A DNA stretch of 64,000 bases, from NCBI RefSeq assembly GCF_015169395.1, contig NZ_CP063458.1, forward strand, positions 3,782,001 through 3,846,000, written 5' to 3'. Below the pieces are notes generated by a model that was given only the letters and a program-made list of their open reading frames with translations, did no database searches and was not told where the DNA came from. Positions 8,133-59,025 of this stretch are shown piece after piece; the first letter of the stretch is position 1, and each line of letters opens with the position of its first letter. The translations under genes were made by a program, and so were the position numbers. This DNA comes from Humisphaera borealis (GTDB lineage Bacteria; Planctomycetota; Phycisphaerae; Tepidisphaerales; Tepidisphaeraceae).

Positions 8133-8209
8133 AAGGAGCCGCGCACGAAGTAAGCGGGGGTGTGCCGCCGCTTCTGGCAATTTCCCGCTTACTTCGTGCG
8201 CGGCTCCTT
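8133..8209. repeat. AGGAGCCGCGCACG-type inverted repeat
   Basis: Perfect 26-bp arms at 8133-8158 and 8184-8209 flank a 25-nt spacer. The core AGGAGCCGCGCACG and the end AAGCGGG are shared with the element at 26090-26214, so this is a dispersed family. It lies between the thyX 3' end and the LOG start, both on the minus strand. Confidence 0.9.
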
Positions 8210-10990: not shown

Positions 10991-11080
10991 GGGTGGCATG
11001 GGCAAGCGTACTCGCTTGCCCGTGAGGGACGCCAACCGACGTTCGACACGGGCAAGCGAGTACGCTTGCCCATGCCACCC
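10991..11080. repeat. GGCAAGCG-type nested inverted repeat
   Basis: Perfect 34-bp arms at 10991-11024 and 11047-11080 flank a 22-nt spacer. Each arm contains its own hairpin, GGGCAAGCG-TACT-CGCTTGCCC, so the element can fold as one long stem or as two hairpins. It lies between convergent genes and may end both transcripts. The outer GGTGGCATGGGC matches the families at 448 and 40774. Confidence 0.92.
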
Positions 11081-21606: not shown

Positions 21607-21717
21607 CGCGACGGTCGAAAGTGGAATGCCGACCTTTGGTGCAACGCATCGGGTTTGCCGGCACCAATTCGACGATCCACAATCGACAATCAACCCGCTC
21701 CGAGTTCCAATTCCGAC

Positions 21718-24243
21718 ATGAGCCTTCTCGCTCGCGTCGCGACCGTCAGTCCCTTCGGACCGATTTTCGGCAAAGAGCTGCGCGTCACCAGTCGGCGAAA
21801 GCGCACCTATCTGCTGCGCGTCGGCTATCTCTCGCTGCTGCTGCTGGCGCTGTTGCTGGCGTACGCCAGTTCCGGCCGGTCGTATGGGGGTGTCGCCGCG
21901 CAGATGCAGCGGCAGGCGGCACTGGGGACGGCATTCTTCGTGGCGTTCACGATCTTCAGCGTCGGGGCAATGGGCCTCATCGGCCCGGTCCTGACCGCCA
22001 ACGCGATCGGCGCCGAAAAGCTCGCCAAGACCCTCCCCGTTCTGCTCATGACGCCGATCACCGCCTGGCAGGTGGTCAGCGGCAAGCTCTTCAGTCGCGT
22101 GCTGGTCGCGCTCATGCTGCTGGGCCTGAGCCTGCCGGTGCTGGCGCTGTGTCGGCTTCTGGGCGGCGTGGAACTGCGGCAGATGCTCGCGGTGCTGTCG
22201 ATTGCGACCAGCTTCGTCATCTCGTGCGCGGCGATCGGCCTGTTCCTGTCGCTTTTCCTGAACCGCGCCGCGATTGTCATCCTGCTGGCGTACGGCATTC
22301 TCGGGGTGCTGTACATCCTTGTGCCGGTCGTGCTGGTAGCGATCTTTGACATCGGCAAAGGCGGGCCCCGCGGCGGACTGGGCGGGATGCAGTTTCTGAT
22401 GGCGCTCAACCCATTCGGCTGCGCCGCGATGATGTGCGAACCCCGCATCGGCAACTTCCTCGGGGATACCTGGATTGCCTGCGTGATCGTGCAATTGGCG
22501 TTCGCCGCGGGGCTGGTAGGGCTGACGTCGATCCTGCTCCGTCGACAGTTCCGCAATGCCGGCGAGAAGCCGATCGCGATGCCCGCTGCCGCCGGTCCGA
22601 GCTTCGTTCCCCAGCCGCCATCGCTACTGCCATCTCAATTACCGCCGCCGCTGCCGGCTTTTGGCGAGTCCTCTGAGCCCGCACTGCCGCCTGTAAGGGT
22701 CGCCTCCGGCCCGCCTCCGATCGTGACCTACGTCGCCCCCATGACGGCCATCGCCGCACTTCCGACCCGCGAGGTCGGCGACAACCCCGTCCTGTGGCGC
22801 GAGCTGCGCCGGCCCCTGTTGCCGAAGTTCTGGCAACGGCTCGTCGCCAGCCTGGCGGTCATGGCCATCATGCTGTTGATTTATGCCGTCCTGGCCGAAG
22901 GCAACGACCTGGACGACGTAGACGTCCAGGGCGGCTTCGCGTGCGTCTTCTTCGGTGTCTGGTGGCTGCTGTCGGCGGTGCTGTCTGCGACCGCGATTTC
23001 CCAGGAAAAAGAGACCGACACTTGGACGCTGCTCATGGCCGCCCCCATGTCCGGCAGCGATATCGTCTGGGGCAAGGTCGTCGGCCTGCTCCGCCGGATG
23101 ATGTGGCCGACCATCCTGATGTGCGTCCACTTCCTGCTCTTCGTGATCGGCGGCGTCATCCCGCTCTGGTCGATCCTGTTCGTCATCCTGATGACCGTCG
23201 CGTGCAACAGCATCTGGCTGGCGACTGGGGTCTGGATCTCATTGCGGATCAAGAAGGTCACCTTCGCGGTCATCGCGAACCTGATGCTCGCGATCATCGC
23301 GTACGGCGTGGTGCCGCTGATGGTGCTGATCCCCGCCGAACTGCTCACCCGTCGCGGCGAACGCCTGGCCCAGCACACGGCGTGGTACATCCCTTACTTT
23401 TACCTGGCCGAGGGTTTCGAGGGGATTCGCCGGACGGACAACAACTGGAAGAACAGCTATTACGAGAATGGTCGCTACATCACGGAGAGCTCGTCGAGAG
23501 CGTATCACCTTCCTGGGAGCGAACGCGTCGGTTCTGTCGGGTTCGTGTCGATCGCGGCCGGCTGCGCGGCGATCCATCTGCTGCTGGCGTTCCTGATCCT
23601 GCGACGGACGGCCGACAACTTCGACGAGATCGTCGGCCGGGCCGGCAAACGCCGATTCGTCGGCGTTACCGATACCGACGACGCGCTGCTGCCGGTCGGC
23701 ACCAGCGCGCCATCCGAAGCGGCCGGCAGGGGTGGTATCGTCGCCGCGTCCGCCGCGACGTCGGCCCACCCGGCCGCTCTTTCCGACGAATCTCCCGATC
23801 TGTATGCCTCGTTCGGTCGCCGGGCGGTCGCGGCGACGGTCGATACTGCGATCGTCATGTTCGCCTGCTCGGTGGTGGGCTTGGTCTGGGGCGTGATTAA
23901 CGTGCTGACCGAAGCCGTGGACGAACTGGACGAGAGCGTGACCCACCGCGTGATGCTCAACCACCTGGGTGTTGCCATCCTGGTGAGCTTCGTGGTCGGC
24001 GTGTTTTACTGGGCGGCGTTCGAGTCATCCCGCCGCCGGGCGACGCCGGGCAAGCTGCTGATGGGCATCTTCGTCGCCGACCTGGAAGGCCGCCGGCTGA
24101 GTTTCGGCAAGGCGCTCGTCCGGCACGTCGGCAAGCTGGTGTCGGCCCTGACGGCCGGCGCCGGATTCCTAGAAGTCCTCTTCAACCGCCGCCGCCAGGC
24201 GATGCACGACCGAATGGCGGGCGCGGTGGTGCTGAGGAAGTGA
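21718..24243 (+). CDS. Duplicated ABC-2 permease fused to an RDD domain
   Basis: An 841-residue inner-membrane protein. Two ABC-2/NatB-like permease halves are visible. The first (about 1-280) starts FGKELRVTSRRKRTYLLRVGYL; the second (about 365-660) starts NPVLWRELRRPLLPKFWQRL. Both contain the IGAEKLAKTLPVLLMTPITAWQ / EKETDTWTLLMAAPMSGSDI type segment with about six hydrophobic helices. A Pro-rich linker joins them. The C-terminal about 140 residues form an RDD domain (FGRRAVAATVDTAIV, RRATPGKLLMGIFV, RQAMHDRMAGAVVL). No ATPase gene is adjacent, so an unlinked NatA-type partner is expected. The start MSLLARV was preferred because upstream bases form an ACAATC repeat. Confidence 0.88.
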   Translation: MSLLARVATVSPFGPIFGKELRVTSRRKRTYLLRVGYLSLLLLALLLAYASSGRSYGGVAAQMQRQAALGTAFFVAFTIFSVGAMGLIGPVLTANAIGAEKLAKTLPVLLMTPITAWQVVSGKLFSRVLVALMLLGLSLPVLALCRLLGGVELRQMLAVLSIATSFVISCAAIGLFLSLFLNRAAIVILLAYGILGVLYILVPVVLVAIFDIGKGGPRGGLGGMQFLMALNPFGCAAMMCEPRIGNFLGDTWIACVIVQLAFAAGLVGLTSILLRRQFRNAGEKPIAMPAAAGPSFVPQPPSLLPSQLPPPLPAFGESSEPALPPVRVASGPPPIVTYVAPMTAIAALPTREVGDNPVLWRELRRPLLPKFWQRLVASLAVMAIMLLIYAVLAEGNDLDDVDVQGGFACVFFGVWWLLSAVLSATAISQEKETDTWTLLMAAPMSGSDIVWGKVVGLLRRMMWPTILMCVHFLLFVIGGVIPLWSILFVILMTVACNSIWLATGVWISLRIKKVTFAVIANLMLAIIAYGVVPLMVLIPAELLTRRGERLAQHTAWYIPYFYLAEGFEGIRRTDNNWKNSYYENGRYITESSSRAYHLPGSERVGSVGFVSIAAGCAAIHLLLAFLILRRTADNFDEIVGRAGKRRFVGVTDTDDALLPVGTSAPSEAAGRGGIVAASAATSAHPAALSDESPDLYASFGRRAVAATVDTAIVMFACSVVGLVWGVINVLTEAVDELDESVTHRVMLNHLGVAILVSFVVGVFYWAAFESSRRRATPGKLLMGIFVADLEGRRLSFGKALVRHVGKLVSALTAGAGFLEVLFNRRRQAMHDRMAGAVVLRK

Positions 24244-24247
24244 ATTT

Positions 24248-24466
24248 GTCACTGGTCACCGGTCACTGGTCACTGGTCACTGGTCACTGGCTGCGCTGCG
24301 CGGCAACCCGTAGGGTCCGCCTTGGCGGACGCGGTCGCTCGAATTGGCATCCGATGTCCACCTTGGCGGTTCGCTCGCGTTGGTGTTCGCTCGCGTCCGC
24401 CAAGGCGGACCCTACGGGTTGCCGCGCAGCGCAGCCAGTGACAAGTGACAAGTCACCAGTGACAAC
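24248..24466. repeat. 49-bp perfect inverted repeat with word-repeat flanks
   Basis: Arms 24285-24333 and 24392-24440 are perfect inverted copies of 49 bp with a 58-nt spacer. Each arm contains the hairpin TCCGCC-TT-GGCGGA. Outside the arms, TCACTGG words (24248-24284) face GTGACAA/CCAGTGA words (24441-24466) in inverted orientation, so homology continues beyond the perfect arms with indels. The element fills the whole gap between the ABC-2/RDD gene and ymdB. Confidence 0.95.
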
Positions 24467-24480
24467 CGATACTCCCCCGA

Positions 24481-25338
24481 ATGCCCTTTCGCATTCTCGC
24501 TCTCGGCGACATCGTCGGCCGGCCCGGACGGATGGTCGTCCACCGCAAGCTCGCCGAACTCGTCCGCACCCAGAAGATCGACCTCGTCGTCGCCAACGGT
24601 GAAAACATCGCCGGCGGTAGCGGCATCACCCAGAACTTGTTCCACAAGCTTCGCAGCTACGGCGTGGACGTCATCACCCTCGGCGACCACGTCTTCAAGA
24701 AGGTCGATATCCTCCCGACGATGGCCTCCAGCGAACGGCTCGTACGCCCGGCGAACCTCTCCGAAGGCGCGGCCGGCCGTGGGCATACCGTGATCAGCAC
24801 CAACGCCGGCGTTCAGGTGTGCGTCTTCTCGGTGCTCGGTCGCATTTTTATGAATAACCTGCCGGCGAACGACCCCTTCGCCGCCGCCGACCGTGTGCTG
24901 GCGACGATTCCCAAGTCGGTGAAGATCTGCGTCTGCGACGTCCACGCCGAGGCCTCGAGCGAGAAGGTCGCGATGGGGCATTACCTCGACGGACGGGTGA
25001 GCTTTATCTTCGGCACGCACACGCACATCCCCACCGCCGACGCCAAGATCCTGCCCGGCGGCAGCGCGTTCATCAGCGACCTGGGCATGTGCGGCCCCTA
25101 CGATTCGGTGCTGGGCCGGCGGAAAGACCGCGTGGTGCGGTACATGACCACGAACATGCCGCAGCCGTTCGATGTCGCCACGGGTGACGTACGGATGTGC
25201 GGCGCGATCGCGGAGGTCGACCCGGAGACCGGGCGGGCGATCTCCATCGAACGCGTCGAGATCGCCGACGGCAACGCCGATGCGGCCTACGACTCCGACG
25301 ACAAAACCCCGCCCGCGAACTACGGCGGCGGGGATTAG
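24481..25338 (+). CDS. YmdB-like (TIGR00282) metallophosphoesterase
   Basis: A 285-residue cytoplasmic phosphodiesterase of the YmdB family. Metal-binding segments appear in the family order: ALGDIVGRPGR, ANGENIAGG, TLGDHVFKK, DVHAEASSEK and GTHTHIPTADAKIL. The SDLGMCGPYDSVLG stretch is also diagnostic. Bacillus YmdB hydrolyses 2',3'-cyclic nucleotides and cAMP-like substrates and influences biofilm genes; the substrate here is unproven. A 20-residue acidic, Gly-rich tail follows the domain. It stands alone between two repeat elements. Confidence 0.92.
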   Translation: MPFRILALGDIVGRPGRMVVHRKLAELVRTQKIDLVVANGENIAGGSGITQNLFHKLRSYGVDVITLGDHVFKKVDILPTMASSERLVRPANLSEGAAGRGHTVISTNAGVQVCVFSVLGRIFMNNLPANDPFAAADRVLATIPKSVKICVCDVHAEASSEKVAMGHYLDGRVSFIFGTHTHIPTADAKILPGGSAFISDLGMCGPYDSVLGRRKDRVVRYMTTNMPQPFDVATGDVRMCGAIAEVDPETGRAISIERVEIADGNADAAYDSDDKTPPANYGGGD

Positions 25339-25398: not shown

Positions 25399-25536
25399 GG
25401 AAGTCCGGTTTCAACACGAAGGCACGAAGAGCACGAAAGGCACGAAGAAATGGAGACGGCAGGCGGCGATCGAAAGCAGCTTCATTTCCGCCTCTTCTTC
25501 GTGTTCTTCGTGCCTTCGTGTTGAAATCGGACTTCC
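25399..25536. repeat. CACGAAGG-word inverted repeat
   Basis: Left arm 25399-25449 and right arm 25495-25536 pair over about 40 bases with few mismatches and consist of iterated CACGAAGG/CACGAAGA words framed by GGAAGTCCG. The left arm has one more word unit than the right. It lies after ymdB and before the UreE-like gene. Confidence 0.9.
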
Positions 25537-26089: not shown

Positions 26090-26214
26090 AGGAGCCGCGC
26101 ACGGACTCAGGAGCCGCGCACGGAGTGTACTCACGGAGTAAGCGGGCATGGGCATGAGCCCCGAACCGTCACCGTTCCCGCTTACTGCGTGAGTACACTC
26201 CGTGCGCGGCTCCT
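26090..26214. repeat. AGGAGCCGCGCACG-type inverted repeat, expanded copy
   Basis: Arms 26109-26146 and 26177-26214 match at 37 of 38 positions around a 30-nt spacer. A further direct copy of the first 15 or so bases precedes the left arm (26090-26108). Compared with 8133-8209 each arm carries an extra segment with GAGTGTACTCAC between the shared ends. The right arm runs into the queA stop codon (26214-26216). Confidence 0.92.
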
Positions 26215-31635: not shown

Positions 31636-32236
31636 ATCGACAATCGCGAAAATAGCCCTTGGTGCTAGCGCCAACAAGGGAATCGCAAGCCCTCAATAGG
31701 ACAATCTTGTCCATTCGGACCAATATTGAACATGTATCCCGTGACGCTACTTGAGTCTGGACGTCCTGCTTCACGAAGGCCTCGCCTGCCCGGGATCGGG
31801 TGGCCGCCAGGGGGGTCTTGCCGGCGACTGACGCCGGGCGCATTTTGCTTGTCTTCCACGGCCATCTACCTAACATATATAGAACAATATCAGGCGTCGC
31901 CGTGGGACGGGTGGCGTCCTTCCTCCATGCGCCGGTCGGCGGGTGTGATCTGTCGGCCTTCAGCGTGTACTCCGTGGAGATGGCCGTCCTAGGACGATCG
32001 GTGTCGGTCGGGCCGGGGTGGTGGTGTTGGTGCTTTGGAGGCGTGGAGGCTTAGCGACGGAGAGAGACGACGTGGGCAGGCTGATCGATCACTTGGGTTC
32101 GTTCGGCGATGTACTCGCTGGGTTCGTTCGGCCAACAAGCCGCGGGCGCAGCGTAATCGCGGAGCCCCGGGTTTGCCGGCGTGATCTCGGGTTCGTTCTG
32201 CAGGAGGGCGGTATGTCAGCGACGCTGACGGCTCAG

Positions 32237-32427
32237 TCAGTGACACGGGCTTCCAGCCCGTGCGTGCGACATTGTGGTCGATGGGCGCTCCGAACGACGG
32301 TTTCCTTTGCTTCTATTCCATTGTCATCATTACCAACCATGTACTCGTGGAGAGGACAGTAAATGCAAAGCGAGCAGCTGCTTGAAGCATCACGCACCAC
32401 GCACGGGCTGGAAGCCCGTGTCACTGA
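32237..32427. repeat. Perfect 30-bp inverted repeat CACGGGCTTCCAGCCCGTG
   Basis: Arms 32237-32266 and 32398-32427 are perfect inverted copies of 30 bp with a 131-nt spacer. Each arm contains the hairpin CACGGGCT-TCC-AGCCCGTG. The right arm lies directly before a truncated TTGGGTTCGTTCGGC copy. Confidence 0.93.
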
Positions 32428-32640
32428 CGGGGTCGTTCGGCAAGGGGTTCTTGGGTTCGTTCGGCGATGCCGTCTTGGGTTCGTTCGGCAGAGGGTGTGA
32501 TTGAGGATGAACAGTCTTCTACTCATGACGCAACTTGCACGGCTTGGAAAGCCGTGTCACGGACAGCCGGCCGGGCCCCCGATAGAAATCGCCAGAGGCG
32601 ATCTCGGGTTCGTTCGGCTATCCGCGCTTGCCGATTCGGT

Positions 32641-57837: not shown

Positions 57838-59025
57838 TTACTGCTTCAGATAGATTTTCCCATCGAGCCTCAAGCCGTTGCTGTGCAGTTCGTACGGGGC
57901 GCTCCAGTTCGTCCCGTCGTCGTAGCGAAACGTCAGCACGTTGCCGCGTTTGACGACCCTTCCCCGGCTACCACCCTTCGCGAGGCCGGTGGCATCCTGC
58001 CCGGAGAAGCCGGTGCTTGCGGTATCGGCGAACGTGCCGTTGGGATAGAGCGTGACGGATCGCGACTGCGACAGGTTGAAGGGCTGCTCGTCGACCTTCG
58101 CCGGTGCCAGTCGAACGTAGTTCTCCAGAACCCACGTGCCAACGAGCCCGGGCTCGATGGCCGCTTCCTTTACGCTGATGCTCTGGGCGACAATCTCGAT
58201 CGCGCGGCCGAACTCCTTCATGCCGGCGTCGGACCCGAGGGCCACGACAGCGATCGCGACATCCTGCCGTCTGACAAGCATCACCCGGCAGATCGCCAGC
58301 TTGCCTTTGATCGTCGCCTGGTATTCCAGGATCATCGCCTCGTCGCCGCCGCAGGTCGTTTTGATCGGCTTGCCCGTCCGCTGGAAGACGGGGCCGGCGA
58401 GCTGATTGAGGAGTTGCTCGACCAACACCGGCCCGGCCACGAACAGATTGGACTGATCCTGCGCATTGGGTGTGCCGATCGCCGCGCGGAGGATGAAATC
58501 TGCCTCGCGTCCCTTGGGCGCACCGTCGCACCAGATGACGTTGTTGGCAACCCCGGGCTGTCCGTAGACCCAAGTGTCGAACCGGGCAATCGTTCCGCCG
58601 GGAAACTGCAGCACGCGGTAGGCGAGCGGATCGCCGCTTCCTGCTTCGCGCGTTGCCGGCTGTGACGAAGCGAAACGTCCGGTATCGCCGGTAGCGTGCG
58701 CCGCTTCGCCGGCGACGCGCTTCAGCCGATACTCCGCGCGACCGCTGCGCAAGACCATGCCTTCGCCGTGGCGAGCCATGGAGAAGTCGAACCGTGAACC
58801 ATCGGCGGCAAACGTGCCGGTCAGTGCTTGGCCGTCGTCGATTGCCTGTGCCGGATACTGTTGCGCGGCTTTGGTAATCAGGCCGTGGTAGGACTTGCCG
58901 TCACGGCTCGACAAGTCGATCCGGAGCTGTTCGCCAGCCCATCCACCATCGTAAGTCGATGCGTTCACCGAGCCGCAAGCCAGCATCACCAGGGTCATTG
59001 CGAGTGCGACGTTGGAAACGGCCAT
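57838..59025 (-). CDS. Secreted protein, unknown function
   Basis: A 395-residue exported protein (signal MAVSNVALAMTLVMLACGSV, cleaved near VNAST). It has an N-terminal beta domain (GGWAGEQLRIDLSSRDGKSYHG), a linker, a middle domain with IARFDTWVYGQPG and YQATIKGKLAICRVMLVRRQD, and a C-terminal lipocalin-like part: GTWVLENYVRL, SVTLYPNGTFADTASTGFSG and VVKRGNVLTFRYDDG. I do not recognise a named family for the middle. GGAG before the chosen ATG at 59025 supports this start over an upstream in-frame ATG. Convergent with the adhesin. Confidence 0.85.
   Translation of the reverse strand: MAVSNVALAMTLVMLACGSVNASTYDGGWAGEQLRIDLSSRDGKSYHGLITKAAQQYPAQAIDDGQALTGTFAADGSRFDFSMARHGEGMVLRSGRAEYRLKRVAGEAAHATGDTGRFASSQPATREAGSGDPLAYRVLQFPGGTIARFDTWVYGQPGVANNVIWCDGAPKGREADFILRAAIGTPNAQDQSNLFVAGPVLVEQLLNQLAGPVFQRTGKPIKTTCGGDEAMILEYQATIKGKLAICRVMLVRRQDVAIAVVALGSDAGMKEFGRAIEIVAQSISVKEAAIEPGLVGTWVLENYVRLAPAKVDEQPFNLSQSRSVTLYPNGTFADTASTGFSGQDATGLAKGGSRGRVVKRGNVLTFRYDDGTNWSAPYELHSNGLRLDGKIYLKQ

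Follow-up and report, generated by a model that had tools for sequence, protein, structure and literature searches.

In the planctomycete Humisphaera borealis, whose genome is a single contig of 7,189,892 bp, the gap between two genes read in the same direction is filled by an inverted repeat with perfectly matching arms of some fifty bases. How does a palindrome of this kind arise, and are its arms kept identical by copying one onto the other, as a sequence-only reading of the locus had proposed? The locus lies in a window of 64,000 nucleotides (contig NZ_CP063458.1, positions 3,782,001 to 3,846,000), to which coordinates refer unless they are given as genome positions. The answer put forward here, with a probability of roughly 0.8, is that the element is a nested palindrome of three dispersed intergenic repeats, built by the accretion of small repeats of known kinds.

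Structure of the intergenic element

The features of the locus are as follows.

21718 to 24243, plus strand: upstream gene (open reading frame), an ABC-2 type permease with a C-terminal RDD domain (Pfam RDD 1.8e-22, ABC2_membrane_2 6.1e-20)
24248 to 24290, plus strand: left heptad array, six GTCACTG words (one of them the variant GTCACCG) reading toward the loop
24291 to 24309, plus strand: left 19-bp core arm CTGCGCTGCGCGGCAACCC, private to the locus and resembling the inner part of the palindrome family CGCTCCGCTNCGCGTCGCGGCTAACC
24310 to 24333, plus strand: left GTAG REP unit GTAGGGTCCGCCTTGGCGGACGCG
24334 to 24391, no strand: spacer of the REP dimer, with a degenerate REP-like palindrome (24356-24371) and a 12-bp direct repeat (24369, 24385)
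24392 to 24415, minus strand: right GTAG REP unit, inverted to give a head-to-head dimer with the GTAG ends outside
24416 to 24434, minus strand: right 19-bp core arm, the exact complement of the left one
24435 to 24466, minus strand: right heptad array, GTCACTGG and then TTG-type words on the minus strand
24481 to 25338, plus strand: ymdB, a YmdB-like metallophosphoesterase (Pfam YmdB 4.4e-96)

The inverted repeat occupies a 219-bp block (24248-24466) and, as had been claimed, fills the gap between the RDD/ABC-2 gene and ymdB: 24243 is the last base of the upstream stop codon, the heptads begin 4 bp on at 24248 and finish at 24466, and ymdB follows 14 bp later. The longest open reading frame of the upstream gene starts at 21655, and an open reading frame that spans the repeat itself (24240-24602) has no Pfam match and is taken as spurious. 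The perfect arms, originally put at 49 bp, are real and two bases longer than that, extending over 51 bp (24283-24333 and 24392-24442) on either side of a 58-bp spacer, and ungapped pairing reaches 72 bp at 96% identity (24262-24333 and 24392-24463). The inversion does continue into the flanking words with a difference in copy number (6 on the left, about 4 on the right), but to call these flanks indel-rich is an overstatement, because the mismatches beyond the perfect arms are mainly substitutions within the seven-base words (TGG against TTG) together with that one difference in word count. Three segments make up the 49-bp arm with nothing left over: 6 bp from a heptad array (GTCACTK)n, a private core of 19 bp and a GTAG REP of 24 bp.

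As RNA, the gap is predicted to fold at -171.1 kcal/mol (z = -15.4), a value that 0 of 200 shuffled sequences equalled, which speaks against a chance pairing. A consensus scan finds no T-run terminator, that is, no GC-rich stem followed by a run of T, and an Rfam search returns no family at gathering score, with only sub-threshold hits to microRNA-precursor models, which match long hairpins. If the hairpin affects RDD-to-ymdB transcripts at all, it would most likely act as an mRNA 3'-end protector or an intercistronic insulator and not as a terminator. The right heptad array also contains a promoter-like match (GTGACA-17-GATACT, 24445-24473) which ends 7 bp before the ymdB ATG and which, if real, would make the ymdB transcript nearly leaderless.

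Dispersed repeats within the arms

The innermost layer belongs to a large set of intergenic repeats. Both arms carry GTAG-G-GTCCGCC-TT-GGCGGAC-GCG, an unpaired GTAG tag beside a short palindromic stem-loop of the form expected of GTAG REPs (stem 5-13 bp, loop 2-20). A genome-wide search for copies related to the arm, which had been suggested as a test and whose failure would have spoken against arm homogenisation, finds hundreds: the 21-bp REP core has 293 matches at no more than 2 mismatches, compared with 0 for a reversed control pattern. The repeat censuses rest on a 1.6-Mb sample tiled from four places of the genome, which holds 87 REP units when up to 3 mismatches are allowed. Neighbouring units in this sample are inverted with GTAG outside in 32 of 39 pairs, mostly 20-100 bp apart, the spacer at the present locus being 58 bp, and just 3 of 55 sampled dimers or single units fall within predicted genes. 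Among the 52 extragenic placements, counted with a rough codon-usage gene caller, 39 are co-directional, 10 convergent and 3 divergent, although divergent gaps make up about 30% of intergenic bases; this is the bias usual for REPs. A second GTAG REP family, GTAGGGTGGGCTTCAGCCCACC, is present at 17-18 similar places in the sample (for example genome 349949-350088, 5129479-5129634 and 3652353-3652489).

The outermost layer is similarly widespread. Convergent pairs of the form (GTCACTK)n ... (MAGTGAC)n number 23 in the collection, the array of this locus among them, and 9 of the 11 whose gene context was examined sit between co-directional genes, most of them a few bases past the preceding gene. 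One further pair, at 57930-58085 of the window, also encloses a REP dimer. Outside this genome the word GTCAYTK is found in many Nostocales contigs, and the heptad word also occurs in contigs titled Bacteroidetes, Acidobacteria, Anaerolineae and other planctomycetes. These pairs sit within a strong bias of the intergenic DNA of this planctomycete toward period-7 sequence and inverted pairs: tandem arrays of period 7 in the 1.6-Mb sample are intergenic in 86 cases and coding in 4 (8 in shuffled sequence), and an inverted partner is present for 47 of 77 merged arrays of any word (61%, against a null of 5%). Read toward the loop, their consensus words number 21, some of them close variants, or about 20 different words. 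They include AGTAGTC, AGGCAGT and AAGGATG, with arrays for example at genome 3686112-3686198, 2805614-2805716 and 149667-149735. In a partial coverage of the literature, the papers found describe single-word cases (cited below), and none treats period-7 inverted arrays as a general class. We tentatively raise the idea that heptad hairpins form such a class, under-described and general, with some 20 words mostly in inverted pairs, a preferred direction for each common word and arms that drift independently; a direction-specific process would make the pairs and perhaps also use the loops as places for REP dimers to land.

The 19-bp core between these layers is of a different character. CTGCGCTGCGCGGCAACCC is found nowhere else in the H. 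borealis genome and has a single match, with 2 mismatches, in one of 25 members of the same taxonomic family; its junction with the heptads is identical in both arms. When one gap is allowed, 17 of the 19 core bases align to the inner part of the dispersed palindrome family CGCTCCGCTNCGCGTCGCGGCTAACC (P = 2e-4 by shuffling); at genome 5113748 a REP dimer is enclosed by a complete member of this family. REP dimers lie within palindromes in 3 of 32 cases, compared with 3.5% of random intergenic points, an enrichment that is suggestive but not clear. The 1.6 Mb contain 86 perfect inverted repeats 22 bp or longer; in 81 the arms come from dispersed families, and in 5, this locus included, they are private. 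The complete arm of this locus is single-copy in the sample. Another private case is a perfect 60-bp inverted repeat at genome 2899906-2900123, whose arms overrun a dispersed family core on both sides and which is the strongest candidate for a genuine local event of inverted copying. The window also holds further dispersed inverted-repeat families (10991-11080, 8133-8209, 26109-26214, 25409-25526 and 32236-32428), which include GTGGCATGGGCAAGYGTACTCGCTTGCCCGTG, a sequence beginning GGAGCCGCGCACGAAG, CACGAAG words and GTGACACGGGCTTCCAGCCCGTGC.

Divergence of the arms and origin of the palindrome

There is no sign that the two arms are kept identical by copying. Across the 32 REP dimers, partner arms share 0 variants and carry 52 unshared ones, and the differences within dimers number 51, compared with 49.3 +/- 2.0 on random re-pairing. 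In the 23 heptad pairs an arm resembles its own partner (0.646) no more than it resembles the arms of other pairs (0.644; P = 0.45), and a search for anti-correlated words between the heptad arms, TGG on one side and TTG on the other, gives nothing significant. A REP dimer that is orthologous between H. borealis and its congener (genome G001) has a substitution in one H. borealis arm, with its perfect partner unchanged. Between the two genomes this dimer (genome 291653-291761 and contig C77 of the congener) shows 1 base difference in its REP arms, while little of the spacer can be aligned and flank identity is about 80%, a contrast that may point to constraint on REP units or to their replacement. 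Arms that diverge freely were named beforehand as the observation that would argue against active homogenisation, and this is what is found at family level in the REP dimers, the heptad pairs and the orthologous dimer. Repeated palindrome correction acting on this class of element would account for the perfect arms of the locus, and the CGCTCCGCTNCGCGTCGCGGCTAACC family shows a weak within-pair similarity (7 against 10.5 differences, P = 0.046, in a sample of only 5 pairs). However, because REP variants are not shared, heptad arms are like those of strangers and the orthologous substitution stands uncorrected, such homogenisation is not supported and is very improbable as an explanation. The earlier proposal of copying between arms thus fails as an ongoing process and survives, with modest prospects, as a one-off inverted copy.

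The components, with their copy numbers and orientation, and the independent divergence of their arms are observed directly; the nesting that we propose adds an order of events. A convergent heptad pair (GTCACTK)n ... (MAGTGAC)n would form the outermost layer, the short palindromic core, with its likeness to a different dispersed family of palindromes, would have come to lie in the middle, and a head-to-head dimer of GTAG REPs, putatively mobilised in trans by a RAYT-type (Y1/HUH) transposase, would be innermost. The heptad arms would afterwards have changed independently through slippage and substitution, and the presumed consequence for the cell, as a by-product, would be an exceptionally stable intercistronic hairpin in any RDD-to-ymdB transcript. 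On this account the arms are perfect over 49-51 bp because the stacked elements were each already inverted: a 24-bp consensus REP, a 19-bp core and 6-8 bp of heptad word. Several observations sit less easily with nesting. The core is shorter than its proposed family and shows the same changes from that family in both arms, and the heptad junction falls at the same base in both, an outcome not necessarily expected if an old family member had simply been inserted; the enrichment of REP dimers in palindromes is unclear; none of the Y1 transposases of the genome is flanked by REP; and the RDD-ymdB order is absent from the relatives examined (no member of the family with a ymdB match has an RDD-gene match beside it), so the gap is not directly comparable.

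The chief rival is a single template switch, in which hairpin-primed copying duplicated some 51 bp of one arm (heptad, core and REP) as its inverted partner. It would explain why a private core and its heptad junction are the same in both arms, and why this locus is the only one of the 32 head-to-head REP dimers whose arms run more than 2 bp beyond GTAG (by 27 bp), and the case at genome 2899906, with 60-bp arms extending past a family core, offers a second private example. Most of the arm, however, needs no copying, because heptad pairs that converge and REPs that face head to head are each found on their own at other places, and the core itself resembles an existing palindrome family. Since the arms are private and uniquely extended among REP dimers, a single inverted copy of the core and heptad junction is possible though doubtful; it is compatible with the rest of the nesting and bears only on how the core came to be present twice. 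Selection of a dedicated regulatory RNA structure or terminator for the control of ymdB would fit a hairpin of such extreme stability, which lies between co-directional genes and ends 14 bp before ymdB. It is nevertheless unlikely, given that T-run and Rfam family are both lacking, that the components are present at hundreds of unrelated genes and that, in the congener, what lies downstream of the orthologous RDD gene is a single GTAG REP-like unit and, after it, a different gene. Least probable of all is a MITE of a DDE transposon with the arms as its terminal inverted repeats. Its ends would be inverted, its location intergenic and its components dispersed, as seen here, but the full arm is single-copy in 1.6 Mb instead of recurring as full-length copies, and the outer boundary shifts with heptad number. 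The one REP empty site examined, where an insert of about 100 bp containing a REP in the congener is missing from H. borealis between matched flanks, shows no target duplication; the existence of this empty site counts in favour of nesting.

Nesting of dispersed repeats stays the preferred reading. The locus illustrates a route by which ordinary repeats, when stacked, can yield a striking perfect palindrome, and it supplies a negative test of arm homogenisation.

Comparison with known repeat systems

GTAG-tagged REPs and their head-to-head dimers were described by Di Nocera, De Gregorio and Rocco (2013, PMC3733652), who also described Planctomycetes with GTAG families and cases of a REP dimer inserted in a longer palindrome. 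The H. borealis units have in common with them the GTAG tag, a 7-bp stem, a TT loop and hundreds of intergenic copies, as well as head-to-head dimers mostly with spacers of 20-100 bp and scarcity in divergent gaps. The stem GTCCGCC-TT-GGCGGAC is assigned at the level of the GTAG REP class, for which that study numbers 24 families. The association of GTAG REPs with RAYT genes is usual but not obligatory (PMC3733652), and here H. borealis differs, with 11 Y1-transposase (Y1_Tnp) matches in its genome of which 0 are REP-flanked. A likeness to REPtrons is seen in two members of its family, one with a RAYT-type gene between GTAG REP dimers whose stem differs from that of the H. borealis REP (G015) and one with an IS200-like gene that has on either side a copy of a similar REP, GTAGGGTCCGCTTCAGCGGAC, the two copies being inverted (G020). 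From this we infer that the REPs of H. borealis may have been transposed in trans by a RAYT that is lost or distant.

The heptad arrays recall two systems: the STRRs of cyanobacteria, heptad repeats capable of forming hairpins between genes (PMC2670836), and the convergent GGGAATC heptad pairs of Xanthomonas, of which there are 70-75 per genome (PMC4692102). The word here, GTCACTK, differs from that of Xanthomonas, the single genome of H. borealis has many different words, and Xanthomonas words can form G-quadruplexes whereas GTCACTK words are without runs of G. Shared with both systems are tandem seven-base words that are intergenic, as in the 86 intergenic arrays against 4 coding ones, and hairpin-forming, in close convergent pairs of which GTCACTK alone gives 23; contigs of cyanobacteria and other phyla also contain the heptad word of H. 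borealis. The locus as a whole is an unusually neat example of kinds of repeat that are already known.
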